Source of the DNA: a bacterium
Lineage (GTDB): Bacteria; Armatimonadota; UBA5829
Assembly (NCBI GenBank): GCA_021373255.1
Contig: JAJFTD010000076.1
Coordinates: 1 to 64,000, forward strand
Direction of reading: 5' to 3'
Length of the DNA: 64,000 bases
The position numbers were made by a program, and so were the translations under genes. Below, in pieces: positions 42,661 through 64,000 of this stretch; positions within the stretch are counted from its first letter, which is position 1, and every line of letters starts with the position of its first letter. The notes beneath the pieces were generated by a model. That model saw only the letters and a program-made list of their open reading frames with translations. It did not search any database and was not told where the DNA came from.

Positions 42661-43908
42661 ATGAAAAAGGTTTCTTTTGTGCTTGTTGGTGCCGGATGCA
42701 GAGGATGGTGCTACAGCAAGTACATTGAAGAGTATCCCGAAGAGGGAGAAGTAGTTGCAGTGTGTGAGCCGATTGACGCAGAGCGCAAAAGGTATGGGGA
42801 TGCTTTCAACATACCCGAAGAGATGAGGTTCCGTGACTGGCGAGACATCCTGGACAAGCCAAAGATGGCTGATGCAGCGATTATATGCACCCAGGACGCC
42901 GACCACCGCGACCCCGCGATTGCATTGGCAAATAAAGGCTATCACCTATTGCTTGAGAAGCCAATGGCACCAACCCCCGAAGACTGCAAAGCAATCTGTA
43001 AAGCCGCAAACGACAACAACATCATGCTGGCGGTATGCCATGTATTACGATACACAGCGTTCAACCGCAAGCTCAAAGAAATGATAGACAGCGGAATAAT
43101 TGGTAAAGTCCACACTATCCAGCAGTTGGAACCAGTCGGCTATTGGCATCAGGCGCACTCTTTCGTTCGTGGTAACTGGAGAAACGAGGAAGAATCTTCC
43201 CCGATGCTCCTGGCGAAATCCTGCCACGACATCGACCTTATCAACTATTTCATGCCTGCCAAGTGCAAAGCAGTATCATCATTCGGCAACCTTTCATACT
43301 TCAACCGTGCAAATCAACCCAAAGGCGCAGCCGATCGCTGCACTGATTGTCCGAAGGATATCGAATCGAAGTGTCCCTACTCTGCATTGAAGATATATAC
43401 CAGAGATAGAACAAATCTGGAAGAGTGGCCAGTGGTTGTTCTATCGCACGAAGGGACCCCTGAAGCCATAATGAATGCGCTCAAGACCGGACCTTACGGG
43501 CGGTGCGTGTTTGCGTGCGATAATGATGTTGTCGACCATCAAGTGGTCAATATGGAGTTTGAAGACAACTCCACTGCTACATTCACTATGACAGCGTTCA
43601 ACTTTAGTGCAGGTCGTGAGACTTTGATCATGGGTGACCAGGGAATGCTCAGATGCACGGACGATGGCATTGTGCATTCGGACTTCCTTTCCGACACCAA
43701 GACCACGATCCCGTTGTATATGGGTGATGGTCAGATAACATCAGGCCACGGCGGGGGTGACTTTGGACTGATGCAGAGCTTCCTTGCCGCGGTTCGTAAC
43801 AACGATCCTTCACTCATTTCATCGGGCTATGATGTATCTCTTGAAAGCCACCTGATCGTTTTTGCCGCAGAAAAAGCCCGCCTTAACAAGACAGTAGAAG
43901 TGATGTAG
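42661..43908 (+). CDS. Gfo/Idh/MocA-family oxidoreductase with cysteine cluster (copy 1)
   Basis: The 415-residue enzyme follows GGAGGAGTATT. It has VSFVLVGAGCRGWCYSKY (Rossmann motif), LLLEKPMAPTPEDC (EKP motif) and SCHDIDLINYFMP. CTDCPKDIESKCPYSALKIY puts three cysteines in a CxxC-x7-C pattern, unusual for the family and possibly a metal site. GHGGGDFGLM lies near the end. It probably oxidises a sugar or cyclitol derivative. It is very similar to the copy at 61243 but sits behind a different operator. Confidence 0.88.
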   Translation: MKKVSFVLVGAGCRGWCYSKYIEEYPEEGEVVAVCEPIDAERKRYGDAFNIPEEMRFRDWRDILDKPKMADAAIICTQDADHRDPAIALANKGYHLLLEKPMAPTPEDCKAICKAANDNNIMLAVCHVLRYTAFNRKLKEMIDSGIIGKVHTIQQLEPVGYWHQAHSFVRGNWRNEEESSPMLLAKSCHDIDLINYFMPAKCKAVSSFGNLSYFNRANQPKGAADRCTDCPKDIESKCPYSALKIYTRDRTNLEEWPVVVLSHEGTPEAIMNALKTGPYGRCVFACDNDVVDHQVVNMEFEDNSTATFTMTAFNFSAGRETLIMGDQGMLRCTDDGIVHSDFLSDTKTTIPLYMGDGQITSGHGGGDFGLMQSFLAAVRNNDPSLISSGYDVSLESHLIVFAAEKARLNKTVEVM

Positions 43909-43973: not shown

Positions 43974-46900
43974 TTAGTATGTCTTATATGACAGTGTCCA
44001 GAAGTAGCGGGTATTTACGCCGTTTATCTTCTTAACTCCCATGATTCCTGTTACAGCCGCATAGCTTCCATTGGCTGGCACAGTGATCTCCCAGGTATTC
44101 TCGTCCATAACCGGACGGCATTTTATTCCAGCGACGGGGGAGCCATATTCCATAGTTCCACCATCAATCAATCCTGACCCATCATCAACATTGAAATAGC
44201 CATTGAAGTCACCGGTGGATTTTGCACCCTTAACGGTTCCCCATATAGTCATGAGCATTCCAATGTTGTTAGGTCCCATGCTCTCGACGACAGGATCAGC
44301 TAGTGCATTGTCTGCAACAGCTCTCTGAAGTCCATATACACCACCTGCTGTGTTCTTTCCAGTCATTCCAAGCGCAGCGATTTTGACATTCGGCTTGGTA
44401 GAATCAACTACTACATTTGTGGCGGTTATTACTCTCTCGCCGTCAACAGTATCTACCGAACCTTCTACATTTACGCAGTCGCCTGTGCTAAGAATCGGAA
44501 GATATGCATATGAATCGCTCCAGACTACTCTAATTCCACTGGTGCGATTGGAGTCCTCGACTGCGAAGCCGATTGATTCCGCCCACTCGTTGTAGAATTG
44601 ACCAGTCACATATTGCCCTGTGAGGTTCACTGCTGTTCCGTTCGATGCTTTCTTCACAGCATCAATACTGGCTGCTGTAGTGGTCTCGGCGGCAGGCGCA
44701 AAGATCATACATCTGGCATCGTTACCCAGGCCAAGTGTGTTAAGGTTGGCATGGACGCGTATGAACTTGCCCTCGTTTGGCTTACCGGGTCCAACGAATC
44801 TGCAAAGCGTTGAACCATCTTGCGCGAAGAGGTCGCCGGATATCGGGTCAAATAATATGAAGCTGACACTCGTCATTGGGCTTCCGGCGAGATTAATGAA
44901 CTGACCAATAAGCTGGCCAGGGTTTTGACCCATCGGTCCTTGGTAGCGGTTTACACCGATATAGAGGTTGCCGTCAGGGCCGAATACCGGCTGAACATAA
45001 CCAACCGGAGAAACAAAGTTTCCTTTATCAGTATTAGGCTGAGAGGGACCGCCCCAATGCCGGATAGCACCCCATCCGCCATAATCAGGACCATCATTAA
45101 CATACAGATCACCATCAGGACCAAAGCCGATGTAATAAGGCTGGCGGAGAGCTGTTGTATAGTTAGGGCTAGGATCAGCTACAGTGTTCGGCGCGATTAA
45201 TGGAGTCTTCTCTTTGAAAGCGTCGATCTTCATCGGGCCTGCAAAATGAGCTACTTTTCTGTAATCATAGGAGCCATTCAAGCCCATAAACGCAACGTAA
45301 ATATCGCCATCAGGCCCAAATGCCATTCCGAATGGAAGATCCTGACCGGCATCCCATACCATTTGGGAATCACCAGTCTGCAGGTTCAGGCGCTCAATTC
45401 CGGTTTTCCCAGGGTTAGCGTCAGATGTCAAAGCATAAAGGTAACCATCGGGGCCAATTTCAATCTGCGCGCAGTTGGCATTGGTATTGTACACCATTAC
45501 CTGACGACCATTGTTATCAATCCGCATTGTGCCTTTTGCACTGAAACCTGCAATTATGATGTCATTAACAGGGGTCGGCGGTTCTATAGGCGTAATATCG
45601 CTGGGAGCAAATACCATCTGGCATGCTCCGCTCCAACCTTGATCGGTAAGGCTGGCGAAATTGCTTACGAAGTGTCCCTCATTTGACTTTCCGGGGCCAG
45701 CAAAGCGTGCGATTTTGTTGTTGTCGTGAGCGTACAAATCGCCATCGACCGGGTTGAATGTGATTTCAGCTATTGAGGTCATGCCACTGCCGGTAAGATC
45801 GATAAACTGCCCGATCAACTGCCCGGGATTATTGCCGTAAGTCCCCTGGTATCTGTTGACACCGGCATAAATATTATTATCCGGCCCGATAGTCGGCTGG
45901 AAGCTGCCTGTGTTCTGAATCTCGAATATCAGGTGATCAGGATCGCCAGGTCCACCCCAGCACTGTATGTTCATCTTATCGGAATTGGCTTGGCCAATGT
46001 AGAGATGTCCATCAGGCCCAAAAGTCATGCGATTGGGTTCGCCAAGAAGATATCCCGTGGTAGGCCCAACGAGATTGTCAACATATTGAAATGCATTAGG
46101 CTTATTGGGACCTGCGTAGTGTTTGATGCCCCTGTTGTTCCAATCGGTGCTGCCATCCGCGTTGCCGGTTGCTCTGAACGCAACATAAATGTCCCCATCA
46201 GGGCCGATAGCCATTGAATAAACAGCATCACCGGGTATGCTTTCAATTACATAACCCTTGAAGCCGCCATTTACGCCGTCAAACCTAGCGATAACACCCT
46301 TACCATTACTTCCAAGGGCATATATGTCCCCATCGGGGCCGAAAGTTACGTGTGACGTGTTGTAGAGATGTCCAAGGTTCTGAATTGCCACGCCATTGGG
46401 ACTATATTGACCGACACTACTGGGCCATGTTGCAACATAAAGCCCTGCAGTAGGCTTCTTGTGAGACAGTGTGAACTCGCCTGGAGTGAAAACCATATAC
46501 CTGGAGCCGCCGATTCCGGCTGCGCCCAGATCTGAAATAATTGTGCTTACATATTTGCCTTCGTTTGTCTTGCCGGGGCCACCAAACCTGCACAGCTTGG
46601 TTCCATCGCTGGCATAAACATCACTGTCAGCAGGGTTAAATGCAAGCATTGTCGGGTTGGTCATTCCACTTCCGGTGAGGTCAAGGAACTGGCCTATCAG
46701 CTTGTCTGGAGTAGCTCCAGATGGTCCCTGGTAGCGGTTGGCACCAACGTAGATATTATCATCCGGTCCAACAAAAGGATTGATCTTCTGTTGAATATAA
46801 CCCACAACGCCAGTTCCGTGCCAGTGCTGAATGCTGCCGTTGTAATCATTATAGTCATAGATGTAGAAATCACCATTCGATGCAGATGCTAACGTTCCAG

Positions 46901-47363
46901 GGTTCCACAACGGCCAGACATTGTCTATCGCCGGAGTGAGCTCTGTAAAGGCGTTCGCCTTTGTGGGGCCAGCGATATGCACGAGCCTCCTGGTATTCCA
47001 GTCACCATTAACCGCTGCAAGCGCAACGTAAATATCGCCATCCGAACCAATGGTCATACCACCCATTGCACTGCTTCCGGCGTTGTAGACATCGCCCATG
47101 TCTTCCATGGTTGTTGGATTTAGCTTTGTGACTGTGTTATGGTTCGTGTCGTTGACATAGAGATTGCCATCAGGTCCAAACGCCAATTGGCTGCAAGTAC
47201 CTATGCCACCATTACTGTTTATGAGGGTTCCAGTATCAGTAAGGTGGTAGACACCTCCTCCCCAGAACGTGCCGATGTATAAATCGGCATTCGCTACTGA
47301 GCCCAGCAAGCCGCTGAGTATGATTGCTGTGACAAGAACGAGCAGTATCACCCTATGTTTCAT
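43974..47363 (-). CDS. Secreted protein with three beta-propeller-like domains and two OB-like domains
   Basis: The ATG at 47361-47363 is chosen because GGAG lies ten nt upstream and a signal peptide follows at once, giving 1129 residues. Three domains of nearly 300 residues (roughly 27-295, 306-600 and 605-890) each hold four to six FGPDG(N/D)(L/I)Y(V/A) blades. Each also has NRYQG..G..P..LIGQF(L/I)DL and ends in MVF(T/A)P. The C-terminal part (about 895-1129) has ESIGFAVEDSNRTSGIRVV, DTVDGERVI and FNVDDGSG, two OB-like modules. It resembles NHL/lyase-type propellers and may bind glycans. No catalytic motif is evident. Confidence 0.75.
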   Translation of the reverse strand: MKHRVILLVLVTAIILSGLLGSVANADLYIGTFWGGGVYHLTDTGTLINSNGGIGTCSQLAFGPDGNLYVNDTNHNTVTKLNPTTMEDMGDVYNAGSSAMGGMTIGSDGDIYVALAAVNGDWNTRRLVHIAGPTKANAFTELTPAIDNVWPLWNPGTLASASNGDFYIYDYNDYNGSIQHWHGTGVVGYIQQKINPFVGPDDNIYVGANRYQGPSGATPDKLIGQFLDLTGSGMTNPTMLAFNPADSDVYASDGTKLCRFGGPGKTNEGKYVSTIISDLGAAGIGGSRYMVFTPGEFTLSHKKPTAGLYVATWPSSVGQYSPNGVAIQNLGHLYNTSHVTFGPDGDIYALGSNGKGVIARFDGVNGGFKGYVIESIPGDAVYSMAIGPDGDIYVAFRATGNADGSTDWNNRGIKHYAGPNKPNAFQYVDNLVGPTTGYLLGEPNRMTFGPDGHLYIGQANSDKMNIQCWGGPGDPDHLIFEIQNTGSFQPTIGPDNNIYAGVNRYQGTYGNNPGQLIGQFIDLTGSGMTSIAEITFNPVDGDLYAHDNNKIARFAGPGKSNEGHFVSNFASLTDQGWSGACQMVFAPSDITPIEPPTPVNDIIIAGFSAKGTMRIDNNGRQVMVYNTNANCAQIEIGPDGYLYALTSDANPGKTGIERLNLQTGDSQMVWDAGQDLPFGMAFGPDGDIYVAFMGLNGSYDYRKVAHFAGPMKIDAFKEKTPLIAPNTVADPSPNYTTALRQPYYIGFGPDGDLYVNDGPDYGGWGAIRHWGGPSQPNTDKGNFVSPVGYVQPVFGPDGNLYIGVNRYQGPMGQNPGQLIGQFINLAGSPMTSVSFILFDPISGDLFAQDGSTLCRFVGPGKPNEGKFIRVHANLNTLGLGNDARCMIFAPAAETTTAASIDAVKKASNGTAVNLTGQYVTGQFYNEWAESIGFAVEDSNRTSGIRVVWSDSYAYLPILSTGDCVNVEGSVDTVDGERVITATNVVVDSTKPNVKIAALGMTGKNTAGGVYGLQRAVADNALADPVVESMGPNNIGMLMTIWGTVKGAKSTGDFNGYFNVDDGSGLIDGGTMEYGSPVAGIKCRPVMDENTWEITVPANGSYAAVTGIMGVKKINGVNTRYFWTLSYKTY

Positions 47364-47419
47364 TCTTGCTTCTCTCCTTTGCTTCAGTATCCGCATTTTT
47401 ATTAACTGCCATCCATAGC

Positions 47420-47459
47420 TGCTGAACTGCCGGGCTTTTGCGTTACCGGCAGTTCAGCA
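47420..47459 (-). terminator. 14-bp inverted repeat between propeller genes
   Basis: TGCTGAACTGCCGG (47420-47433) pairs with CCGGCAGTTCAGCA (47446-47459), 12 nt beyond the stop of the single-propeller gene on the minus strand. It probably ends or attenuates transcription before the triple-propeller gene. Confidence 0.65.
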
Positions 47460-47470
47460 AAATCAAGAAT

Positions 47471-48436
47471 CTATTTCTTCCGCCGGTAAATTGCACCAGC
47501 ACCAAAGAGCCCAAACACAAGAGCAACAATGCTGCCCGGCTCTGGCACTGATGGCGTAAAGACCATATACCTGGAGCCACCGATTCCGGCTGCGCCCAGA
47601 TCTGAGATAATTGTGCTTACATACTTGCCTTCGTTAGCCTTGCCGATACCGCCAAACCTGCACAGTCTGGTTCCATCGTTGGCATAAACATCGCCATCAG
47701 CAGGGTTAAAAGCAAGTATTGACGGAGTGCCCATTCCGCTGCCGGTAAGATCAAGGAACTGGCCTATTAGCGCATCAGGGCTAGTTCCATTCGCTCCCTG
47801 GTAGCGGTTTACGCCAACATAAACATTGCCATCAGGCCCTACGACAGGATTAAATTTCTCGTAAATATAACCTAATACTTCAATCCCGTGCCAGTGCTGG
47901 ATGCTGCCGTTGTAATCATTATAGTCATAGATATAGAAATCACCATTAGGTGCAGCAGCCAATGTTCCAGGGTTCCACAGTGGCCAGACATTGTCTACCG
48001 CCGGCGCTAATTCTGTAAAGGCGTTCGACTTTGTGGGGCCAGCGATATGCACTAGTCTTCTGGTGTTCCAATCGCCATTAACTGCAGCAAGCGCAACATA
48101 GATGTCTCCATCTGAGCCGAATGTCACGCCACCCATTGCACTTGATCCAGCATTATAAACATCGCCCATGTCTTCCATTGTTGTCGGGTTCAGCTTTGTT
48201 ATCATGTTGTGATTCGTGTCATTTACATAGAGATTGCCATCAGGCCCAAATGCTATTTCGCTGCAAGTACCAATACCACCGTTGCTGTTTATCTTCTGTC
48301 CGGTATCGGAAAGGTGATATACGCCACCTCCCCAGAACGTGCCGATATACAAATCAGCATTCGCGACTGAGCCCAGCAGGGCACAAAGAGATACGGCCGT
48401 TGCACAAACAATATTCAAACCAAGTTTCATTTTCAT
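47471..48436 (-). CDS. Secreted single beta-propeller protein with PEP-CTERM sorting signal
   Basis: The 321-residue protein starts after GGGAGGAG with seven nt spacing. It has a signal peptide (about 1-27) and one propeller domain nearly identical to the first domain of the next gene. The tail is VPEPGSIVALVFGLFGAG followed by AIYRRKK, the PEP-CTERM arrangement of a PEP motif, a hydrophobic helix and basic end that exosortases process. It is thus likely surface-anchored, unlike its larger relatives. Its promoter region carries the LacI-type palindrome at 48567. Confidence 0.83.
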   Translation of the reverse strand: MKMKLGLNIVCATAVSLCALLGSVANADLYIGTFWGGGVYHLSDTGQKINSNGGIGTCSEIAFGPDGNLYVNDTNHNMITKLNPTTMEDMGDVYNAGSSAMGGVTFGSDGDIYVALAAVNGDWNTRRLVHIAGPTKSNAFTELAPAVDNVWPLWNPGTLAAAPNGDFYIYDYNDYNGSIQHWHGIEVLGYIYEKFNPVVGPDGNVYVGVNRYQGANGTSPDALIGQFLDLTGSGMGTPSILAFNPADGDVYANDGTRLCRFGGIGKANEGKYVSTIISDLGAAGIGGSRYMVFTPSVPEPGSIVALVFGLFGAGAIYRRKK

Positions 48437-48566
48437 TGTAATTCTCCTCCCGTTTATTTACGGATGCGGTAATTTAGGATCTGTAGTCCTTTTGATAACA
48501 CTGTGTATACTAATACCTCTTACACTGCCCCCTTTCAGACTTTTTATGATCTAACCTTACGAGCAC

Positions 48567-48587
48567 TGTTCACGTGAACACTTTATA
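48567..48587 (-). promoter_or_regulatory. LacI-type operator in front of the PEP-CTERM propeller gene
   Basis: The perfect palindrome TGTTCACGTGAACA lies at 48567-48580. On the minus strand it directly follows TATAAA (48582-48587), a plausible -10, though the -35 is weak. The remaining 275-bp gap up to 48711 holds no gene. Confidence 0.68.
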
Positions 48588-48711
48588 CCAAACAAATATG
48601 CAGTCTGATATAGAAGGGGTTGTCAATTTGGATTATTCCATGCATTGCTGCCATTGTCAACCGTTATTAGATAGATACTCGTAATAATACCTATAGTTAA
48701 TGATAATTCGC

Positions 48712-51453
48712 TTAATCCGCTTTCTCAAGAACAAACAACAATGCGCTGTAAGCCGGAATGCTCACATTGAGATGTATTGCCCCATCAGTTACTGTCTTGA
48801 CACCATCATCAATTGGAACAAGCTTGCTTGCATTGTTAATGCTATCAATAAGTGAAGAATCTCTTGCACAGTCAGCCTGTGTTAACGATCTCTGGTTTGC
48901 CAGATACCAGGAGTTTGCCTGCGTTGATGACAAGACATACCTCTGGACCCTGAAACTGCTGCCGATTCCCGCAGGATTAACGGATACCGCTACGGATGTG
49001 GTGTAGCTTGCAGCCGGATTTTGATCGAAGCTGTAGCATAGGACATTGATCTTGGTATCTGTTGCAGTCGCCAATGTGTAGATAGGTTCTTTATCGGCTG
49101 ACGCATTAACCAGGTTGCCACCGTTAAGCATCGACATCATCTGGCTGGCACGTGATAACGGCGTAAATATGCCATGGAATGTCACGCAGGTGCTCTGACC
49201 GGTGAACTCCGGAACGTCAGTCATCGGGACGCCATCGTAGTAGACAGTAGCATTTGGCGCTTCAAGGAAGAATATCAGCAGATTTACTCCCAGCCTATAC
49301 GAGAAATTGGCTGCATGCATCGTCGCTATCGCTTGTATGTGATTATCATTCTCATGAGGAATGTTATTCAGGTTTGTATAGCCGTCACTGTGAATCGGCG
49401 CGAATTCCGTATTGAAGAGTGGCAGCCTCTTGCCAGTCTTCTGATAATAACTGTCAAGGTAGCCCTGGTACTTCAGAATTTGATCCTCGGATGGCCTCCA
49501 ACTGATATCCAGGCTGGACCCCCCCATATAACCGTGGTAACTCATAGCGTCTATCTGTGTCCCAACCTGGCCGGTATAATAGTTGACTCCAGTGGCGCAA
49601 TGCGTGAGCATCGGTTCCATCCATGTGTCAGGTGGACCGCTGGGTCCTGAGATGAATATCTCCGGCAGCGCTCTCCTTGCTCCATGAATGGAGTAATCCT
49701 GCAGCTTAAAGAAGTCATTCATCATGTTATCCGGGTTATCAGGATCACCCCAGAAGGTTGCTCCGCTGCTCGGTTCGTTGCCTGTTTCAAATATCCAGGT
49801 CAGGATCTCATCCTTACCGTAAGTGTCCACAAGATATTTAACAAACTGGTAGTTCAACTCTTCCCATAAGTTCCAGCAGTTTTGGTCACGGGGGATATAG
49901 CGCCAATCATAGTTTTTAGCCAGCATCATAGGAACCGGCCAAAATCCGAGGATCGGCTTACAACCTGATTGAAGCACTGCCTTATCTATGACCTGCTTGA
50001 TGCCTGAAAAATCGTAGTGCGGAACGCCATTAGAGTAAATTGTGTAGAATGTAGGGAAAGCCTCGCTGCTTTCAGGGTATTTTGTTCTTGATTGACCAGT
50101 GGAAAGTAGCCATTTGCCATTGCCATCGCTATTCATGGCATAGACGTGTGTCCCATACACATCGTGAAGGCGTACATATTTGAACCCGAGCTGAGTTCGC
50201 TGCGTATACCACCTGCCAGGACCCTCGACCCACTTACCTGCAGTCCCAATGGTCGGCGAATAGGCATACCAAAAGCCTCCGGTGTCAAAGGCGTTGAGAG
50301 GACTATTGAACGTCTGCATTCGGGCTGTACAATCAACTGTAACTGCGGCTTGCGCTGTGTCCTTGCTGCGAATCGGCATAGCTTGATATACCGACGGCGT
50401 ATTCACCTGCAAATCATCGAAATACACGGTTCCTGCAGAGCCTGGTTTCATACCAAACTCCCACTGCGCGTAACGTGTCTCTATCCTGGTCGTGTTCAGA
50501 TCAACATTGAATACCTGCCAATCACTCGTCCCTGCCAGTGCGGCAACATCGCGGATTCCAATTACTGCCCCGCTCATGCTATAGAAAACAAGACGCGCGT
50601 AGGCTCCATCACCTGTTATTCCCACGGTCTTGATAGATATTTTTGCGTTCGCCTGATTGGTATTTAAGTATCCTTTGTTAGATGTGAGGGTGCATTCACC
50701 ATTCATCATCATAGAGACAGCACCCTGGCGCTTAACATCCGTCACGCAACTCGCGTGGCTGTTATAGGTGTCATACATGCCTTCCGGTGCCTTGATGGCA
50801 AATCCATTTGCATGCATGCCCGATGCATCACGTATTTCAAATGACCCGTTCTCTGTAACATTAGCTAAAATCTGAAGCGTGCGATCAGGAAGCGGTTCTT
50901 TCCACACACGAATATCATCAAACCAGACCTGCGAGCCTGCATCAGCCTGAATGAGAATGAAAGGCCTCAGAGTCGTTGTTGTTTCCTTAGGTGTCCATCG
51001 ACGCTCCGCATACACCCAGTCCGAGTTCCCCTCAGCGTATTTGATATAGGTCTGCATGTCATACCAATTGCCGTTAATGACGTTGTTCGCGTTTCTCTGC
51101 TCTAATCCAAAGCCTGCTCCATAGAGGCCATTTGATATAAACTTTAGGTTGTTGAATTTCCCCCATGCAGATATACAATAGGCATAGCCCGGTTCGACAG
51201 TGATAGTATTACTCGAATAAATCTTGGTGCTATTGCCACACAATAGACTGCGGCTGCCTGTATGATATGTATCACTCACCACACTGGCGGTTCCATAAGA
51301 CTTCGACCAACTGGGGATGCCGCTGCCGGTTACCTCGAACCCTGGATTATAGCTGTCGAGTAGATTATCCTGCGCAGCACAGCCCGTTTGTATGGCTGCA
51401 GCCATAACCAGTGCGAAAGCTATATAATAATTTCTCGTCACCTTGTTTTTCAT
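48712..51453 (-). CDS. GH39-like secreted glycosidase with two carbohydrate-binding-like domains (copy B)
   Basis: The 913-residue protein has a signal peptide (about 1-27). Two beta-sandwich domains follow (about 34-186 and 197-352; PGFE...SWSKSYGTASV, WFDDIRVW, ENGSFEI, YFDDLQV). A TIM barrel of clan A starts near 390. The acid/base is Glu560 in WIFETGNEPS and the nucleophile Glu683 in PLFNTEFAPI, as in GH39 beta-xylosidases and iduronidases. The closing beta-domain has LFVLEKAD. It is the last gene of a four- or five-gene operon and a paralogue of the gene at 53139. Substrate is not known. Confidence 0.82.
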   Translation of the reverse strand: MKNKVTRNYYIAFALVMAAAIQTGCAAQDNLLDSYNPGFEVTGSGIPSWSKSYGTASVVSDTYHTGSRSLLCGNSTKIYSSNTITVEPGYAYCISAWGKFNNLKFISNGLYGAGFGLEQRNANNVINGNWYDMQTYIKYAEGNSDWVYAERRWTPKETTTTLRPFILIQADAGSQVWFDDIRVWKEPLPDRTLQILANVTENGSFEIRDASGMHANGFAIKAPEGMYDTYNSHASCVTDVKRQGAVSMMMNGECTLTSNKGYLNTNQANAKISIKTVGITGDGAYARLVFYSMSGAVIGIRDVAALAGTSDWQVFNVDLNTTRIETRYAQWEFGMKPGSAGTVYFDDLQVNTPSVYQAMPIRSKDTAQAAVTVDCTARMQTFNSPLNAFDTGGFWYAYSPTIGTAGKWVEGPGRWYTQRTQLGFKYVRLHDVYGTHVYAMNSDGNGKWLLSTGQSRTKYPESSEAFPTFYTIYSNGVPHYDFSGIKQVIDKAVLQSGCKPILGFWPVPMMLAKNYDWRYIPRDQNCWNLWEELNYQFVKYLVDTYGKDEILTWIFETGNEPSSGATFWGDPDNPDNMMNDFFKLQDYSIHGARRALPEIFISGPSGPPDTWMEPMLTHCATGVNYYTGQVGTQIDAMSYHGYMGGSSLDISWRPSEDQILKYQGYLDSYYQKTGKRLPLFNTEFAPIHSDGYTNLNNIPHENDNHIQAIATMHAANFSYRLGVNLLIFFLEAPNATVYYDGVPMTDVPEFTGQSTCVTFHGIFTPLSRASQMMSMLNGGNLVNASADKEPIYTLATATDTKINVLCYSFDQNPAASYTTSVAVSVNPAGIGSSFRVQRYVLSSTQANSWYLANQRSLTQADCARDSSLIDSINNASKLVPIDDGVKTVTDGAIHLNVSIPAYSALLFVLEKAD

Positions 51454-51492
51454 AACAGAATGAAATCCTCAGGTTCTATTATCACTCGATAG

Positions 51493-53121
51493 TTAAAGTG
51501 CTTTCCAGGATACAGTCCAGAAATATCGTGCATTGTGGCCATTTACTTTTTGAACTCCCACAACCCCCAGAGCAGTTACGTATGTATTTTCCTGTGGCAT
51601 CGGCCCAGGGAGACCGTTAAAGGCTTGCGCAGGTCGGCATCTTACGCCACTGATTGGCGCGCCTGAGGCATCTACACTGCCATCCCATAGGCCCGATCCG
51701 TCATCCAGGTAAAAGTAACCGCTATAGTTCCCGGTATTTGCCACGTATGTTACTCTGCCGAATATCTTCGCGTATAAACCGACGGTGTTCAGCCCTGTGC
51801 TTAGCGTATCCGGAGCGTTGTCTACAACAGCCGGCTGAGCGCCAAAGGCACCACCACAAACAGCTTTGTTATTAAGATAAAGGGGAGATGCTGCAGTATT
51901 GCCTTTTGAGATTATTGTCACTGAGCTATCAGGACCACTGGTATCAATAACACGCTCGCCATCCAAGGTCACTGCCCTACCCTGCACGCTTACTTTATAT
52001 CCGCGAAGGACACTTGCGGTTGATATCACTCGAACACCGGATGTTCTTTCCGGGTGCTCTATCGAAAACCCGATTATGGACCCGGTATCTCCCATGAACC
52101 TGGCTGTAACTACCAGGTCATCAATTTTCACCATTGAGTAGCTGGGAAGTGACTTGGCGTTGCTCATCCCAAGCGATGGAGTAGGACTAATGGGCGTGAA
52201 AACAATCTGGCGAGGAGAATTTATCTCTGTCGAGCTAATGGTCGCGAAAGTGCTTACATACTTCCCAGCATTTAGCTTATCTGGGCCGTTGAACCTCGCA
52301 ACCACACTTCCATCGTGAGCATAGACATCACCATCAACCTGATTGAATGCCAAAGACACCACTTTAGTCAGGCCACTGCCTGATAGGTCAATGAATTGAC
52401 CAATGAGTTGCCCTGGATTTTGGCCGTATGGCCCCTGATAGCGATTAGTGCCAACGTAGAGGTTGTTGTCAGGACCAAAAACTGCCATCCCTGTGGTGCC
52501 CGCAATGAAATCGCCTTTGAAAAGATTGGGCTGACTCGGGCCGCCCCATCGTTGGATAGTAAGCAGCATTCCGTCGGAAATATAAAGGTCACCATCAGGA
52601 CCGAATGTCATCGTGTATGGTCCATATAGAGGCCAGACTGAGTCGATCAAAGGCGACTGTGCAACAAATGGATCATCCGCTGCCGGACCGGATAAGTGGG
52701 CAATCTTTCGATGGCCGAAGTCTCCATCTACACACGTATATGAGACATATAAATCTCTGTCAGGACCGAATGCCATTGCGGAGATATAATCGTCAGGGTC
52801 GGCAGTGAATACAACGCCTTTCACAGCACCCGTCACGGTATTGTATCGCCTGACACATCCCCCAAATCCAGCGAACATTGCATATAGGTCACCATCGGGG
52901 CCGAATGCGAGCTGTGTGCCGGTGGGTTGGCCGTCGAGGGTCTTCACATAAGTTCCGGCAGAATTGAACCAGCCTACTCCGGGTCCCGACCAACTGGCGG
53001 CATACATATCAGCACAGACGGGAGAGGCAAGCATGACTATTGCCAGAATTACAGCAATACCAACCGCTGCTCCTGAATTATGGGGCATCCGTATTCGTCT
53101 CTTCAAGCCATAAATGGACAT
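51493..53121 (-). CDS. Secreted single beta-propeller protein with two OB-like domains
   Basis: The 542-residue product has a signal peptide (about 12-38). One propeller domain follows (about 38-325: LAFGPDGDLYAMF, MTFGPDGDLYISDG, GTNRYQGPYGQNPGQLIGQFIDLSGSG split by variable loops). Two C-terminal OB-like modules match the end of the triple-propeller protein (IIGFSIEHPERTSGVRVI, FYLDDGSG, ARYFWTVSWKAL). It lies between the two GH39-like genes with gaps of 17 and 39 nt, which shows co-transcription and suggests a shared glycan target. Confidence 0.76.
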   Translation of the reverse strand: MSIYGLKRRIRMPHNSGAAVGIAVILAIVMLASPVCADMYAASWSGPGVGWFNSAGTYVKTLDGQPTGTQLAFGPDGDLYAMFAGFGGCVRRYNTVTGAVKGVVFTADPDDYISAMAFGPDRDLYVSYTCVDGDFGHRKIAHLSGPAADDPFVAQSPLIDSVWPLYGPYTMTFGPDGDLYISDGMLLTIQRWGGPSQPNLFKGDFIAGTTGMAVFGPDNNLYVGTNRYQGPYGQNPGQLIGQFIDLSGSGLTKVVSLAFNQVDGDVYAHDGSVVARFNGPDKLNAGKYVSTFATISSTEINSPRQIVFTPISPTPSLGMSNAKSLPSYSMVKIDDLVVTARFMGDTGSIIGFSIEHPERTSGVRVISTASVLRGYKVSVQGRAVTLDGERVIDTSGPDSSVTIISKGNTAASPLYLNNKAVCGGAFGAQPAVVDNAPDTLSTGLNTVGLYAKIFGRVTYVANTGNYSGYFYLDDGSGLWDGSVDASGAPISGVRCRPAQAFNGLPGPMPQENTYVTALGVVGVQKVNGHNARYFWTVSWKAL

Positions 53122-53138
53122 CTTACATACCCCTGAGA

Positions 53139-55985
53139 TCAGTCAACTTTCTCCATCACCAATACTGTCACGCTGAATGAAGGCATACTGAGGTTCACAT
53201 GTACCACTCCATCAGTTACCTCATGGATCCCTGCATCCTCAGCTTTAGGTTCGGTTTCTGCGTTGATTCTTTCGACGATTGAAATATCCTTATCGCAGTC
53301 AGCTTGCGTGAGGTTCATTTGCTGCGCCAGATACCAGGAATTAGCTTTGGTTTCTGAGAGTTCGTATTTGGTAACCTTGAACTTCCGGCCCAACTCGCCC
53401 ACTTTTACAAGGACATCAACCGATGTTGTATACTTCGCCCTTGGGTCCACATCAAAACTGTAACAAAGCACCTTGATCTGGTTGCCTTTCATACTGGCGA
53501 GGACCCAAATCGGCTCTTTATCTGCATCTGCCTGCACTTCTTGCCCGCCATTGAGCATCGACATCAACTGAGCAGAACGACAGATAGGCTTAAATATGCC
53601 GTGATACGAGATGCATGTGTTCATACCTGCAAACTCCGGTACTTGATTACGCGGCTCATCGTATTTCAAATCTCCGTAGCTGGGATTTTCAAAGAAGAAC
53701 GTCACTGTCTTCAGCCCGAATTTCCATGCGAGGTAACCATAATGCATTGCGGCTATTGCGGTAACGTGATTTTCCCTTGCGGGGGTGATTGCGGCTATAG
53801 GTGGAACTCCATCCATACATATCGGAGAAAACTCGGTATCAAGCATATCCATCTTGTATCCGGTTACTTGCTCGTATCGCTTCACATAACTCAAATAGGT
53901 GAGAATATACTGCTCCGCGGGTCTCCAGCTCAGGTCAGACGCCCCGCCGCCCCAATAATTATGTATTGTCAGTGCTTCAAGCTTTGTGCCTCGCTTACCG
54001 TTGGCGTAGTTTATGCCGCTTGAACAGTGATCGATCATCTCCGGTGTCCATGACCCACCACTCGGGCCTGAGATGTATATGTCTGGAAGCGCGCGCCTGG
54101 CGCCTTCGATGGTATAGTCCTGGAACTTGAAGAATTCGTTCATGGCATCTTCGCGCTTGCCAGGCACTCCAATCCATTCCGGCTCAGTGCCGGGCTCGTT
54201 GCCGGTCTCGAACACCCACGTTCGTATCTCGTCCTTGCCGTAGGTATCAACCAGGAACTTGATAAATTGATAGTTCAGCTCTTCCCACTTTTTGTAGTCT
54301 TTCGGGGCATAATGGCGGTAGTCCCAAAGGCTCGCAGGATTTCCATGCAAGCCCAGATCATAAGGTATCCCATACAGGCCGATTATAGGCTTGCATCCAG
54401 ACGCTAGAATACTTTTGTCCAAGAGATACTTTATGCCTGAGAAGTCATAATGCGGATTTCCATCTTTATCTTCGATGTATGCCGGCTTTACAAGCTCGTT
54501 GCTCTCTGGGTAATATGTCCGCGCCGCATGATAACTCAGCTTCAGTGCTTTGTTGAATGGATAGACATATCCCTCAGGCGCGTGTAACTCTTCTTCTGTA
54601 GGCGCTACAGCACACATATACTGAGGGCTATAAACATCATGCATACGCACGTATTTGAACCCCAGGCGGCGTCTTTCTGAGAACCACTTTCCTGGTCCCT
54701 CTATATATTTGCCTGCTGTTCCGATCATCGGAGAATATGCGAGGTGTTCGCCCGCACTGTCAAATGCGCATAAGGGGTTATCGAATGTGCTCCTTTGTAC
54801 GGCACAGTTTACGTTTACAGTCGCATGAGCAGTATCTTTATCCCGCCTCGGCAGAGGCCTCAAGGTGGAGAGAACATTCACCTGCAGGTCATCGAAGTAA
54901 GCCACGCCTGTGGAGCCTTTATCCATCCCGAATTCCCATTGTGCGTAGCGTATCTTCTTTTTATTGATATCCTTGAGGTCAACTCTGTAGACTTTCCAGT
55001 CCAGCGTTCCCTTTTGTGATAAAACACTGCGCGTCTTCACAACCCTGCGCGCGTTATCATAAAGTACAAGTTTTGCGAATGCGCCTGAGCCTTTGCTCTT
55101 CACGCCAACGGTTTTCACAGCTATCTGCGCAGTGGCGTTATTTGAAGCTAGATATCCAGCGTAGGAGATAACGGTGCACTCACCTGCTATTTTCATTGAG
55201 GCTACGCCGTTATACTTGGTATCCTCAACACAGGTCATTCTGTTGTTATAAGTATCAAATAACGATTTGGGAGCTTTAATATCAAACCGGTTCGGCTTTG
55301 CGCCACCTACTGCGTATCGGACTTCAAACGACCCGTTTTCTATTACATTCAGCTTTGTGTCGACTGTTTTCTCAGGCAGTTTTTCTTTCCAAACACGGAA
55401 CTCATCGAACCAGATTTGCGAACCATCATAAGCCTGAACTAGAATGAATGGCCTCAGATATACTGTGGTGTCTTTGATAATCCAGGTTCGGGTGGCAACG
55501 GACCAATCCGTATTACCCTCTCCGTATTTGAGGTAGGTCTGCATGTCATACCAGTTACCGTTGCAGACTTTATTGGCGTCCACCTGTTCCAGTCCGCAAC
55601 CGACTCCGTATTTGTCGGGTATGAACTTCAAGTTCTTATACTTGCCCCATGCTGCTATATGGTAACTATAACCCGGCTCCACTTTTATAAGCTGATCATT
55701 GTACACTTTTACATCAGTCGAGCACCATAGGGATTGTTTGCCTGAGTATTTAGTATCCGTAACGACTTTGGCATTACCATAAGCTACAGTCCAGCCCGTT
55801 ATTTTTCCATCTTTGATAGGCTGCTCAAAGCCGGGGTTGCTTCCAGACATCAGATTTTCTGCGGTGTTCGTCTTCTTCACAGAAGCCGATGCACACACCG
55901 TCATAGAAAAGAGAATCAGCACAGCTAGAGCTATTGATGGACTCAATACGTTCACCGAGACTTTATGCTTCATCGCTACAGACAA
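53139..55985 (-). CDS. GH39-like secreted glycosidase with two carbohydrate-binding-like domains (copy A)
   Basis: The 948-residue protein starts with TTG six nt after GAGGAG; an ATG four codons later has poor spacing. A signal peptide (about 5-35) precedes two beta-sandwiches (about 45-200 and 212-370). The catalytic barrel has Glu597 in WVFETGNEPG and Glu718 in DMLDTEFSPI. It aligns with the gene at 48712 throughout, with an extra loop around 455-500. GH39 fits best; another clan-A family close to GH39 is possible. It probably acts outside the cytoplasm on xylose- or uronic-acid-containing glycans, which is an inference. Confidence 0.82.
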   Translation of the reverse strand: MSVAMKHKVSVNVLSPSIALAVLILFSMTVCASASVKKTNTAENLMSGSNPGFEQPIKDGKITGWTVAYGNAKVVTDTKYSGKQSLWCSTDVKVYNDQLIKVEPGYSYHIAAWGKYKNLKFIPDKYGVGCGLEQVDANKVCNGNWYDMQTYLKYGEGNTDWSVATRTWIIKDTTVYLRPFILVQAYDGSQIWFDEFRVWKEKLPEKTVDTKLNVIENGSFEVRYAVGGAKPNRFDIKAPKSLFDTYNNRMTCVEDTKYNGVASMKIAGECTVISYAGYLASNNATAQIAVKTVGVKSKGSGAFAKLVLYDNARRVVKTRSVLSQKGTLDWKVYRVDLKDINKKKIRYAQWEFGMDKGSTGVAYFDDLQVNVLSTLRPLPRRDKDTAHATVNVNCAVQRSTFDNPLCAFDSAGEHLAYSPMIGTAGKYIEGPGKWFSERRRLGFKYVRMHDVYSPQYMCAVAPTEEELHAPEGYVYPFNKALKLSYHAARTYYPESNELVKPAYIEDKDGNPHYDFSGIKYLLDKSILASGCKPIIGLYGIPYDLGLHGNPASLWDYRHYAPKDYKKWEELNYQFIKFLVDTYGKDEIRTWVFETGNEPGTEPEWIGVPGKREDAMNEFFKFQDYTIEGARRALPDIYISGPSGGSWTPEMIDHCSSGINYANGKRGTKLEALTIHNYWGGGASDLSWRPAEQYILTYLSYVKRYEQVTGYKMDMLDTEFSPICMDGVPPIAAITPARENHVTAIAAMHYGYLAWKFGLKTVTFFFENPSYGDLKYDEPRNQVPEFAGMNTCISYHGIFKPICRSAQLMSMLNGGQEVQADADKEPIWVLASMKGNQIKVLCYSFDVDPRAKYTTSVDVLVKVGELGRKFKVTKYELSETKANSWYLAQQMNLTQADCDKDISIVERINAETEPKAEDAGIHEVTDGVVHVNLSMPSFSVTVLVMEKVD

Positions 55986-56026: not shown

Positions 56027-56791
56027 TTACCAGGGCATCAGGTAGGTGCTGAACATATAATCTCCACCATTACCCTTAATGGTCGATGCATTTACGAACT
56101 TAACGTGCCCATCCCAGAACGCTACGCTGAATCCACCTGTTTTGCGATGATCAACTAGGTTGTATCTGTCTTTATCACTGGTAGCAGAAAAATACTCGTT
56201 CCTGTCACTACCATGCCTGAGCTCATACTGATGCGCCCACCAGGGTCCCCATCCCCACCAGGGATTGATAACCTCACCCCACATTGCAGTACGATTAGTT
56301 GATTTTATTTTTGCGGTGACTCCACCAAGCAACTTCATCCACTCCGGCCTACCAGATTGGTAATAAGGGCGCAAACTTACACAACCGTTCCAACCATATC
56401 CACGACCCACAAACTGGTCAGGGGATGCTCCTCTCGGTACAGGATGCTTCAATCCCGAAGGGCATACGAAAACGCTTAAATACTGGCCATATGGCCTTCC
56501 TCTTGAATCAACTTCAGTGGAAATCACTTTTGCTTTAGTTATATACTTTCCAACCAATAACATAGCATCTTGCCCGAAGTTGCCATTGGCATCATCGATC
56601 ACAATGCGTCCGTTATTGTTGTCCACATACATGAGTGTCGCCTGTGCGATTTGCTTCATATTGGACTGGCACTGACTCTGGTAGGCGCTCTGACGGACAG
56701 ATACAAAAACTGGAAATAGAATTGCCGCCAGGATTGCAATTATGGCGATGACAACCAATAGCTCGATTAGTGTAAAGCCTCGTCTACTCAT
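56027..56791 (-). CDS. Prepilin-type N-terminal methylation protein (pseudopilin-like), first gene of the GH39 operon
   Basis: The ATG at 56789-56791 is chosen (GGG nine nt upstream), giving 254 residues; an ATG two codons earlier is possible. It opens [18 protein letters not shown] with the G/FTLIE cleavage site. Then comes a variable globular part with [10 protein letters not shown] (the H-x9-DG-like end). It shares its N-terminus and layout with the gene at 31712. It is the promoter-proximal gene of pseudopilin-GH39-propeller-GH39, so its export or assembly appears tied to the secreted glycosidases. Confidence 0.87.
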
Positions 56792-56907
56792 TTTCATTAA
56801 CCCTTTCAAAACACATGTCCCACCCAGTCTGTACTTGCGTAGGTTGCACTATATTAATATCGGATAAGCTGCTTTGATTTGGTCGCAGCAAAGCTCTTCA
56901 ATCAGAT

Positions 56908-57083: not shown

Positions 57084-57125
57084 TTGACAAAGCACAGCCT
57101 TTGAGGTAACCTGTTCACGTGAACA
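57084..57125 (+). promoter_or_regulatory. Promoter and LacI-type operator of the deacetylase-like / beta-mannosidase genes
   Basis: TTGACA (57084-57089) and TAACCT (57107-57112) are spaced by 17 bp; TGTTCACGTGAACA (57112-57125) starts at the last base of the -10. The 366-bp gap 56810-57175 holds this and the divergent promoter, with no gene. Confidence 0.77.
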
Positions 57126-57175: not shown

Positions 57176-58765
57176 GTGTCAAACGCAAGTGGCCATAAAA
57201 CCGAAATATCACCACGTATTGTAAACCCAATTTTCTTTATTCGGGGCGTGGAACCGCGAGAACAGATCGATCTTCTAGAGCCGATTGTTAATGCAGTTGA
57301 GCTGTTGAATAAGCATAATCTACCTGCAACATTTCTTCTTCAATACGATGCACTTCAGAATGGCGAGTTTCTGAAACTCATAAATAAGTTGGATATACGT
57401 CCCGACATAGGTATATGGCTAGAGATTGTTCAGCCACTTGCGGAAAAGGCCGGGCTAGAGTGGCGCGGTCGATGGTCTTGGGATTATGAGTCACATGTCG
57501 ATATGCTTGTTGGTTATGCGCCAGATAAACGAAGAGAGATGATAGACATATTTATGGAGGAATTCAAAAGCGTGCTCGGCTATTACCCCAGATCAATTGG
57601 ATCTTGGGTTCTGGATGCTGTCACGCTTGATTACCTCGCTGAAAAGTATGGCGTCATTGCGGCATGTAACTGCAAAGATCAGTGTGGTACTGACGGTTAT
57701 ACGCTCTGGGGAGGCTACTGGAACCAGGCGTATTATCCAAGCCGATCCAATGCACTAATGCCCGCTCAAGATAAATCGCATCAGATTCCCATTCCGATAT
57801 TCCGCATGCTCGGAAGTGACCCTATTTACCAGTATGATCATAACCGCGGAGAATCGCAGCAGGGGGTTGTTAGCCTTGAACCTGTCTACCCTGGTGGTGG
57901 AGGATGCGATGAGTGGGTGGATTGGTTCTTCGGTACAAACTTCAAATCGCCTTGCCTCGCCTTTGCCTATACACAAGCAGGCCAAGAGAATTCTTTCGGC
58001 TGGGAGAAGATGAAGAAAGGGCTTATTTATCAACTCGGTGAGTTGGAAAGACTGCGCGACGAACACTTAGTCCGCGTTGAAACTCTTGCTGATTCGGGAG
58101 CATGGTTCAAGAATCAATTCGATCTCACACCCGCGACCGCTGTTACAGCACTCACGGATTGGAAAGATGAAAACCACAAAACCGTGTGGTATAACAGCCG
58201 ATTCTACCGGACTAATTTGTTTTGGGAAGATGATCAGTTCTGGATACGTGATATTCACCAATTCGATCAACGCTATCAGGAACGCTATCTCGAAGATACC
58301 TGCAAGGTGCCATTATCTATTTATGATACACTGCCGGTTATGGACGGTTATAACTGGAGCACGCGTGATGAGATTGCAGGGATTAGGGCAGTATCATTGG
58401 CTGATAGTGGTTGCAAACCACTGAGCGGCACTGCACCTGGTGTTGAGGAGAAGTCAGCAACAGACCTTGCAGTCTCTTGGCTTTTAACTTCTGGGGAAAG
58501 CCTGGAAGTTCTATGCAGGGAAGATAGCCTGGAAATATCTCTAAACATGGATAACTGGGCACTTGCAATGAGCTGGAGCAAGGATAAGCATATCGACTTG
58601 ACCGGTATAACAGATAAATCGCTATGCTATCAACATGAAGGATTTACTTATAAAGTAAACTGCTCTGTTGGCAGTATTAAACAGAATGGTGATCAATCGG
58701 TTCTGATATTGCCTGAGAACGGGCGGATCATCTTCAATATGAATTGTATGGCACAAGAGCAGTGA
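57176..58765 (+). CDS. Polysaccharide-deacetylase-fold-like protein of unknown function
   Basis: The 529-residue protein starts with GTG, seven nt after TAGGAGGA. The N-terminal half has LLNKHNLPATFLLQYDALQN and DIGIWLEI, similar in arrangement to NodB-type deacetylases or GH57-like barrels, and GSWVLDAVTLDYLAEKYGV. The C-terminal part (about 340-529) is beta-rich. The usual deacetylase HxxxH metal motif is not visible, so enzymatic activity is unproven. No signal peptide is seen. It is 24 nt upstream of the beta-mannosidase-like gene and under the same LacI-type operator. Confidence 0.55.
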   Translation: MSNASGHKTEISPRIVNPIFFIRGVEPREQIDLLEPIVNAVELLNKHNLPATFLLQYDALQNGEFLKLINKLDIRPDIGIWLEIVQPLAEKAGLEWRGRWSWDYESHVDMLVGYAPDKRREMIDIFMEEFKSVLGYYPRSIGSWVLDAVTLDYLAEKYGVIAACNCKDQCGTDGYTLWGGYWNQAYYPSRSNALMPAQDKSHQIPIPIFRMLGSDPIYQYDHNRGESQQGVVSLEPVYPGGGGCDEWVDWFFGTNFKSPCLAFAYTQAGQENSFGWEKMKKGLIYQLGELERLRDEHLVRVETLADSGAWFKNQFDLTPATAVTALTDWKDENHKTVWYNSRFYRTNLFWEDDQFWIRDIHQFDQRYQERYLEDTCKVPLSIYDTLPVMDGYNWSTRDEIAGIRAVSLADSGCKPLSGTAPGVEEKSATDLAVSWLLTSGESLEVLCREDSLEISLNMDNWALAMSWSKDKHIDLTGITDKSLCYQHEGFTYKVNCSVGSIKQNGDQSVLILPENGRIIFNMNCMAQEQ

Positions 58766-61242: not shown

Positions 61243-62493
61243 CTACAGATGCTCTACAGTGTTGTCCCGTCGAGCTTTCTCAGCAGCAAAGACTATCAGG
61301 TGGCTCTCAAGGGAGACATCAGGCCCTGATGTTATATACGAAGGGTCGTTATTACGAACAGCATTCAGGAAGTTCCCCATCAACCCAAAGTCACCTCCAC
61401 CATGTCCTGATGTAATGAGACCGTCGCCTGTATCCAGTGGAATCGCTGATTTTTTGCCGCTGAGGAAATCATAATGGTCAATGCCGGTTTCCGTGCACTT
61501 GAGCGCGCCCTGATCCCCCATAATGAAGACCTCACGGCCTGCTGCAAAGTTGAATGCTGACATTGTAAACGAGGCAGTGGCGCCGCCCTCAAATTCTAGA
61601 TTGACTACCTGATGATCTACAACATCATTGTCACATGCAAACACGCAGCGCCCATATGGTCCATTTTCCAACTCCCGCATTACCGCTTCTTCGGTTGCTT
61701 CATGCGTTAATACATTCACAGGCCACTCATCCAGTGAATTGATTCTATCCCGAATGTAGATTTTAAGCGCAGAATACGGGCACTTCGACTCTATATCCCT
61801 CGGGCAATCAGTGCAGCGATCAGCCGCACCCTTTGGCTGATTCTCGCGAGTGAAGTATGAGAGGCTTCCGAATGATGAGACTGACTTGCACTTCGATGGT
61901 ATGAAGTAATTGAGAATATCCATATCGTGGCAGGATTTTGCCAGAAGCATCGAGGAGGACTCTTTCTCATTCCGCCAATTACCACGCACGTATGAATGCG
62001 CTTGATGCCAGAAGCCGACCTGTTCGATTAACTGAATATCGCGGATATCGCCAATTACTCCGCTATCTATGATCTCTTTGAGCTTGATATTCAATGCCGT
62101 GTATCGTAGAACATGGCATACAGCAAGCATCACTCCGTTTTTTATAACAGCGTCATATATAACCTTGCAATCTTCAGGAGTTGGGGCCATTGGTTTTTCG
62201 AGCATGAGGTGATAGCCCATACCCGCCAGAGCAACCGCTGGGTCGCGATGCTGTGCATCCTGAGTGCAGATAAGAGCTGCTTCAGCCAGTTTTGGCTTGT
62301 CCAGAATATCTTTCCAATCATGAAATCGAAGCTCTTCAGGGATGTTATATGTGTCTCCAAATCTATTGCGAACCTCATCAATCGGCTCACATACAGCTAT
62401 AACTTCCCCTTCATCTGGACTTGATTGTATATATTTTGTGTAGCCCGAACCTCTACAACCAGCGCCTACGACAACAAACGAAACCTTTCTCAA
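61243..62493 (-). CDS. Gfo/Idh/MocA-family oxidoreductase with cysteine cluster (copy 2)
   Basis: The 416-residue paralogue of the gene at 42661 starts with TTG, seven nt after GAGG, at the position equivalent to that gene's ATG. It keeps VSFVVVGAGCRGSGYTKY, LMLEKPMAPTPEDC, the CTDCPRDIESKCPY cysteine pattern and GHGGGDFGLM. Most differences are conservative, so the duplication is fairly recent. It lies downstream of the LacI repressor gene on the same strand, separated by a repeat-rich gap, and probably acts on the sugar that this regulon handles. Confidence 0.88.
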   Translation of the reverse strand: MRKVSFVVVGAGCRGSGYTKYIQSSPDEGEVIAVCEPIDEVRNRFGDTYNIPEELRFHDWKDILDKPKLAEAALICTQDAQHRDPAVALAGMGYHLMLEKPMAPTPEDCKVIYDAVIKNGVMLAVCHVLRYTALNIKLKEIIDSGVIGDIRDIQLIEQVGFWHQAHSYVRGNWRNEKESSSMLLAKSCHDMDILNYFIPSKCKSVSSFGSLSYFTRENQPKGAADRCTDCPRDIESKCPYSALKIYIRDRINSLDEWPVNVLTHEATEEAVMRELENGPYGRCVFACDNDVVDHQVVNLEFEGGATASFTMSAFNFAAGREVFIMGDQGALKCTETGIDHYDFLSGKKSAIPLDTGDGLITSGHGGGDFGLMGNFLNAVRNNDPSYITSGPDVSLESHLIVFAAEKARRDNTVEHL

Positions 62494-63843: not shown

Positions 63844-63885
63844 TGTTCACGTGCACAGTTTACCTTACGTATCTCATTTTGTCAA
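63844..63885 (-). promoter_or_regulatory. Promoter and operator of the LacI repressor gene
   Basis: On the minus strand TTGACA (63880-63885) and TAAACT (63857-63862) are spaced by 17 bp. The palindrome at 63844-63857 (plus strand TGTTCACGTGCACA) abuts the -10, consistent with autorepression. The 5' leader to 63704 is about 140 nt. Confidence 0.76.
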
Positions 63886-63946: not shown

Positions 63947-64000
63947 TTGACAAGCCGCCAATCTTGTGGGATCATAAAGAATGAAGCAACTGTTCACGTG
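63947..64000 (+). promoter_or_regulatory. Divergent promoter with LacI-type operator cut by the window end
   Basis: TTGACA (63947-63952) is followed by AT-rich candidate -10 sequences (GATCAT at 63970-63975). TGTTCACGTG starts at 63991 and runs to the last base, so the right half-site lies outside. It points to a further regulon member transcribed rightward beyond the window. The -10 is not certain. Confidence 0.55.

Follow-up and report, generated by a model that had tools for sequence, protein, structure and literature searches.

Secreted NHL-type beta-propeller proteins and an operator-like palindrome common to mannoside-catabolic genes in an Armatimonadota bacterium

What might a bacterium do with three secreted proteins that carry the same propeller unit in different numbers and with different C-terminal ends? 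The question is raised by a locus in a 64,000-nucleotide stretch of DNA from a member of the Armatimonadota (GenBank assembly GCA_021373255.1, contig JAJFTD010000076.1, positions 1 to 64,000), hereafter called the window. The initial annotation had placed three such open reading frames (ORFs) here, and all three are present. Judged by sequence comparison, the encoded proteins are divergent members of the ScyD/ScyE-like group of NHL beta-propellers, and their genetic setting suggests that they assist the handling of mannose-containing sugars outside the cell.

43974-47396, minus strand: P0001, 1140 residues; signal peptide, three propeller units (about 37-309, 314-597 and 612-905) and a C-terminal OB-like pair module (906-1140)
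47471-48436, minus strand: P0002, 321 residues; signal peptide, one six-bladed NHL-type propeller unit (about 26-297) and a PEP-CTERM sorting signal
51493-53121, minus strand: P0003, 542 residues; signal peptide, one propeller unit (about 37-313) and a C-terminal OB-like pair module (316-542)

The propeller unit and its family placement

The same unit is repeated five times at the locus, three times in P0001 and once each in P0002 and P0003. The five copies align over their full length of about 272-294 residues, and the signature NRYQG, singled out in the initial annotation, occurs once in each of them. Pairwise identity between units is 40-43% over ~270 aligned residues; only one pair, P0002 with unit 1 of P0001, is closer (85%). 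The E-values of P0002 against the remaining units range from 5e-47 to 3e-170 and rule out chance likeness. Changes within the 85% identical pair are mainly silent (nonsynonymous divergence dN 0.09, synonymous divergence dS 0.88; NG86), so that both units look to be under purifying selection. In the gap between the P0002 and P0001 genes (47397-47470) lies a long inverted repeat, TGCTGAACTGCCGG ... CCCGGCAGTTCAGCA, which could set differential expression of the two. All three proteins open with a hydrophobic, signal-peptide-like segment, as judged from the sequence without a predictor.

The propeller fold proposed for the unit was borne out by structure prediction. Given the five window units as input, AlphaFold2 returned a closed six-bladed beta-propeller with high confidence (predicted local distance difference test, pLDDT, 93.3; predicted TM-score, pTM, 0.91), all beta and comprising 23 strands. 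Six blade repeats are also discernible in the unit sequence itself, and the order of their motifs indicates that the unit's first strand probably completes the last blade. The best matches among solved structures were six-bladed YWTD and NHL propellers, represented by LRP6 (Z 25.0, 2.6 A, 237 residues aligned) and by the NHL domain of TRIM2 (Z 21.3, 2.6 A, 227 residues aligned). Virginiamycin B lyase and lactonases of the SMP-30/gluconolactonase type have the same propeller fold and appear in the Foldseek/VIA match lists.

No established family had been recognised for the unit in the initial annotation, a statement that has to be revised on two counts. The blades are NHL repeats, and two of the three proteins pass the gathering cutoff of PF01436 (20 bits), P0001 with 31 and P0002 with 24.3 bits. 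Moreover, ScyD/ScyE-like NHL PEP-CTERM propellers have a strand c-d motif to which the stretch NRYQG..LIGQFIDL corresponds. The NCBIfam ScyD/ScyE family NF033206 was matched by all five units, with scores below its curated cutoff of 80 bits (P0001, 41.3; P0002, 25.1; P0003 unit, 20.4); the three cyanobacterial relatives that we tested also stayed under this cutoff (46.5-56.3 bits). Profile-profile comparison of the unit with cyanobacterial PEP-CTERM NHL propellers gave a probability of 99.5 and an E-value of 3e-22, and paired NRYQG...LIGQF with the relatives' strand c-d motif RYDGxTGAFLGxFV (the RYnGkTG strand). Because of this alignment, the signature is best read as a known blade motif in a form whose loop is longer.

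Relatives of the same general plan, with FGPDGNLY blades and in several cases a terminal PEP-CTERM, occur in cyanobacteria, planctomycetes and further phyla. A contig scan with the P0002 sequence alone found no close relatives; the scan with the unit profile retrieved 44 loci of 26-36% identity, representing generic NHL propellers across many phyla. One locus, on an Anaerolineae contig, is a very large NHL array, an open frame of 2880 residues with 13 propeller-profile matches (score 340). Within the phylum, some match to the unit was found in 116 of 291 genomes, and close matches among these 291 were confined to the source genome, the best elsewhere reaching E 7e-18 with partial coverage of the unit. 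Among the best 60 of 92 matched ORFs, NRYQG appeared in two entries only, both from the locus itself. According to these comparisons, the NHL blade family and the ScyD/ScyE-like motif are already known, and what is divergent is a unit variant found, among 291 genomes of the phylum, in the source genome only.

The three proteins differ in their C-terminal ends. The PEP-CTERM signal predicted for P0002 is present (NCBIfam, 20.5 bits against a cutoff of 16); it scored 17.9 bits in the Pfam scan, under the cutoff of 20.7, and 22.8 bits in the genome-wide search, above the Pfam cutoff. Two exosortase genes are present in the genome, along with 29 PEP-CTERM stretches that pass the cutoff. The proposed mix of anchored and free forms holds insofar as the signal is found on only one of the three proteins; anchoring itself does not follow, since PEP-CTERM is an exosortase-processed sorting signal. 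For P0001 and P0003, which had been assigned two OB-like domains each, we confirmed a common C-terminal module of ~200 residues (38% identity), with less to be said for its division into two OB folds. The OB-fold family PF01336 matched the first half of the module with an E-value of 0.0044 (17.4 bits, cutoff 27), the two halves matched each other in hhalign (probability 60.8, E 8e-5), and a structure model built from the two sequences was of low confidence (pLDDT 41.8). A pair of OB-like domains is plausible and weakly supported. Whole or in half, the module was found in 15 distinct ORFs examined in the source genome, counting overlapping loci once and including some ORFs clipped upstream by the stretch examined. 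It lies at most 34 residues from the ORF end in 13 of the 15, and three of the 15 contain only about one half of it. In one such place (L120, G000:C162), neighbouring ORFs each end in a single half, which suggests that the halves are independent domains. A second sugar locus (L116, G000:C80:8000-26000) encodes a pseudopilin and two proteins bearing the OB-like pair module.

An operator-like palindrome and the genes behind it

The propeller genes appear to be linked to their neighbours by a palindrome. The exact sequence TGTKCACGTGMACA occurs four times in the 4.19-Mb genome, all within the window, and its reversed-pattern control not at all. Allowing up to two mismatches, the window contains 4 sites against 0.25 expected, a number reached in 0 of 100 shuffles. 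A fifth site with one mismatch lies at the window's edge. The sites, given without strand, are as follows:

48567-48580: TGTTCACGTGAACA, from the palindrome search, before P0002-P0001
56908-56921: TGTGCACGTGAACA, before the P0006 operon; overlaps the -10 element of TTGACA-N17-TACACT
57112-57125: TGTTCACGTGAACA, before the 57176/GH2 operon; overlaps the -10 element of TTGACA-N17-TAACCT
63844-63857: TGTGCACGTGAACA, before the LacI-type regulator; overlaps the -10 element of TTGACA-N17-TAAACT
63991-64000, extending 4 bases beyond the window to contig position 64004: TGTTCACGTGATCA, one mismatch, before the GH130 gene

Five transcription units stand behind these sites, namely P0002-P0001, P0006-P0005-P0003-P0004, 57176-GH2, the LacI-type regulator with a Gfo/Idh/MocA oxidoreductase, and GH130. 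At three of the five sites, the palindrome begins at the last base of a TTGACA-N17-TANNNT promoter pattern, which occurs five times in total on both strands of the 67.7-kb contig. This arrangement is most naturally read as a repressor site that covers the promoter, and the five sites with the regulator apparently constitute a small LacI regulon whose operator is shared with the regulator's own promoter. The exact palindrome was found in the source genome only among 21 searched and in none of the 20 relatives; the same 20 relatives likewise lacked a regulator orthologue (E<=1e-60). For the propeller and GH39-like genes, too, close matches are limited to the source genome. The base composition gave no sign of foreign origin, as the G+C content of the propeller region (0.46-0.49) is similar to that of the remaining window; the unit and the regulator are nonetheless missing from the relatives.

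The genes around the propellers, in which GH denotes a glycoside hydrolase family, are:

48712-51453, minus strand: P0004, secreted GH39-like enzyme with an N-terminal CBM_4_9-like region, in the P0003 operon (PF01229, E 4.1e-19, above cutoff)
53139-55985, minus strand: P0005, secreted GH39-like enzyme, paralogue of P0004 (PF01229, E 4.7e-22, above cutoff)
56027-56809, minus strand: P0006, pseudopilin of the DUF1559 type, opening the P0006-P0005-P0003-P0004 operon (N_methyl and PF07596 both over cutoff)
57176-58765, plus strand: 529-residue protein that opens the GH2 operon (no family match over cutoff; PF12979, E 0.045)
58790-61186, plus strand: GH2 enzyme, nearest to beta-mannosidases (best PDB match beta-mannosidase 5n6u, E 1.8e-77; GH2 Pfam domains)
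61243-62493, minus strand: Gfo/Idh/MocA oxidoreductase, 3' of the regulator (family match)
62664-63704, minus strand: LacI-family transcriptional regulator (LacI helix-turn-helix and sugar-binding domains)
L135:1628-2629, just past the window: GH130 gene (PF04041, 251.7 bits)

Read leftward, the gene order is P0006, P0005, P0003 and P0004, separated by 17-41 bases, followed by a gap of 275 bases and then P0002 and P0001. The two GH39-like enzymes are 49% identical, and the CBM_4_9-like region of P0004 scored 24.2 bits, slightly below cutoff. Compared to the GH39 beta-xylosidase 2bs9 (E 8.5e-17), P0005 matched the acid/base NEP motif and left the nucleophile unaligned; a TEF motif present in both P0004 and P0005 is a likely nucleophile candidate. 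Searched against 61 genomes, P0005 found some match in 22, the source included, and P0004 was the sole close one. Among 32 genomes that encode a related propeller, covering 32 of the 44 loci, GH39 matches (E<=0.001) were present in 6, a co-occurrence counted per genome. For the GH130 protein, the nearest match is UHGB_MP, a mannoside phosphorylase (E 1e-163), followed by the beta-1,4-mannooligosaccharide phosphorylase 5ayd (E 1e-150). Because GH130 is closest to mannoside phosphorylases and GH2 to beta-mannosidases, the target of the system is probably a beta-mannoside, a term that covers plant mannan, an N-glycan-like core or another source. Since they share the operator with these mannoside genes, the propellers are probably co-induced with the two GH39-like enzymes by beta-mannoside, and this common operator makes a part for them in glycan handling more likely. 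The families identified around the propellers are sugar-catabolic (scy genes themselves were not searched for), and no transporter genes were seen among the five operator-linked transcription units. Similar Gfo/Idh/MocA oxidoreductases flank the cluster at 42661-43908 and 61243-62493, the second alone being preceded by an operator site.

Possible roles of the propellers

We favour, at about an even chance of being right, an explanation in which the proteins are regulon-controlled, secreted NHL-type propellers that act without catalysis by binding glycan or enzymes. The LacI-type repressor encoded next door would bind the TGTKCACGTGMACA palindromes at the promoters, and a sugar derived from beta-mannoside would lift the repression. 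Derepression would then turn on the two GH39-like enzymes, the three propeller proteins, the beta-mannosidase-like GH2 enzyme and the GH130 mannoside phosphorylase. Once secreted, the propellers would bind glycan or enzymes non-catalytically and hold them together, with the PEP-CTERM form acting at the cell envelope and the OB-module forms acting once released, or attached through the OB-like module. We infer the occupancy of the sites by the regulator, beta-mannoside as inducer, and glycan binding or enzyme scaffolding by the propellers. A more specific proposal, which we put forward tentatively, is that the units represent a new class of operator-controlled secreted NHL-propeller glycan binders: one beta-mannoside receptor, made in sorted single-unit and released multi-unit versions, would concentrate the polysaccharide together with the two GH39-like enzymes, as a propeller counterpart of the binding proteins in other polysaccharide systems. 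The OB-like pair would then supply a second means of attachment or targeting, as a module not described so far.

Several observations weigh against this explanation. In the Pfam scan, P0003 had no NHL PF01436 match at E<=1, and no carbohydrate-binding family scored over its cutoff for the propellers. On the side of regulation, the LacI-type regulator is presumed to bind the five sites, having been paired with them by neighbourhood alone. With one mismatch allowed, the genome contains the palindrome at seven places, five at the cluster and two elsewhere, compared to two for the control. The sites of P0002 and GH130 have TTGACA 44-46 bases upstream, without exact promoter overlap, and the overall promoter scan gave no excess (24 sites vs 23.3 in shuffles). 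Finally, ScyE, a relative by motif, is required in Nostoc for the dimerisation of the scytonemin monomer (PMC4870267, PMC12188702).

Because ScyE, which shares the PEP-CTERM as well, is needed for a chemical step, a catalytic role of the propellers is possible. They might, for example as lyases, lactonases, or oxidative or condensing enzymes of the ScyE type, act on a product of the GH39-like enzymes. The fold held in common with virginiamycin B lyase and SMP-30/gluconolactonase-type lactonases is consistent with this idea, as is a set of polar residues invariant in the five units (R102, H106, W156, N190, R191, Q193, Q206, D234, R240 and K246 in the numbering of the P0003 unit). However, many invariant residues belong to the motif repeated from blade to blade and could have a structural role. 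By the terms of the initial annotation, its view would be overturned if the unit clearly matched a characterised enzyme family, and no such match was found: every enzyme-family score in Pfam and NCBIfam is below cutoff. The SMP-30/gluconolactonase family SGL (PF08450) gave 17.5 bits for P0002 and 10.2 for P0001 against a cutoff of 26.3, Vgb_lyase gave 11.8 bits for P0002 against 50 with no match listed for P0001 and P0003, and the ScyD/ScyE family scores reported above point the same way. Virginiamycin B lyase has Glu/His catalytic sites and SMP-30 a Glu ligand, to which the alignment of the five units, with no invariant glutamate and a single invariant histidine, is a poor fit. We thus regard an enzymatic role as unlikely.

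A scaffold that docks the GH39-like enzymes or the pseudopilin without contacting glycan has somewhat more in its favour, and we still think it rather improbable. The nearest folds, NHL and YWTD propellers, include protein-binding domains, as in LRP6-Dkk1 judging by structure titles; P0003 lies between both GH39-like genes within a single operon, and the three-unit P0001 would present three sites. Yet P0004 and P0005 show no paired docking module in the Pfam scan, which identified only the CBM_4_9-like and GH39 regions. Many PEP-CTERM proteins are assumed to be surface or exopolysaccharide-matrix proteins, and the propellers might be generic components of this kind with no specific mannoside role. 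The two exosortases and 29 PEP-CTERM stretches of the genome would fit, as would the wide spread of related NHL propellers, several with PEP-CTERM, in unrelated phyla. In contrast, the exact operator shared with mannoside enzymes is confined to the propeller cluster, and two of the three propeller proteins lack the PEP-CTERM signal, so that we consider this possibility quite unlikely.

Comparison with known systems and meaning

We compared the propellers and their locus with known systems. With ScyD/ScyE-like NHL PEP-CTERM propellers (the NF033206 neighbourhood) the proteins share a signal peptide, six FGPDGNLY blades, the strand c-d motif RYxG..G..ig.F, a closing strand at the C-terminus and, in P0002, PEP-CTERM. 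They differ by a longer c-d loop in blade 5 (NRYQGPxGxNPGQLIGQF), by tandem units and the OB-like module, and by a setting that appears to be a sugar regulon rather than a pigment cluster. The NHL repeat domain (PF01436; TRIM2 NHL) is shared in the profile score of P0001 and P0002 and in the predicted six-bladed fold; unlike TRIM2, the window proteins are secreted, bacterial and without RING/TRIM parts. Virginiamycin B lyase and SMP-30/gluconolactonase are alike in fold, whereas the window units score far under the cutoffs of these families. Beta-mannoside utilisation loci, such as the beta-mannan loci of Roseburia intestinalis, hold GH130, GH2 beta-mannosidase and LacI-type regulator classes. 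The locus described here likewise has a GH130 phosphorylase, a beta-mannosidase-like GH2 enzyme and a LacI-type regulator, in this case under one operator, and adds three NHL propellers, a pseudopilin and two GH39-like enzymes.

Environmental bacteria commonly carry NHL PEP-CTERM propellers, most of which have been given no role, and even the function of ScyE has been read mainly from a mutant. Judged by titles and abstract openings, the papers found on NHL proteins or propellers with PEP-CTERM, polysaccharide (utilization), glycoside hydrolase or Armatimonadetes described no propeller in a glycan regulon. The apparent operator link to a defined catabolic set gives these propellers a testable substrate class, the beta-mannosides, and a testable role. 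A role within the regulon would also explain why one propeller is made in both sorted and unsorted forms.

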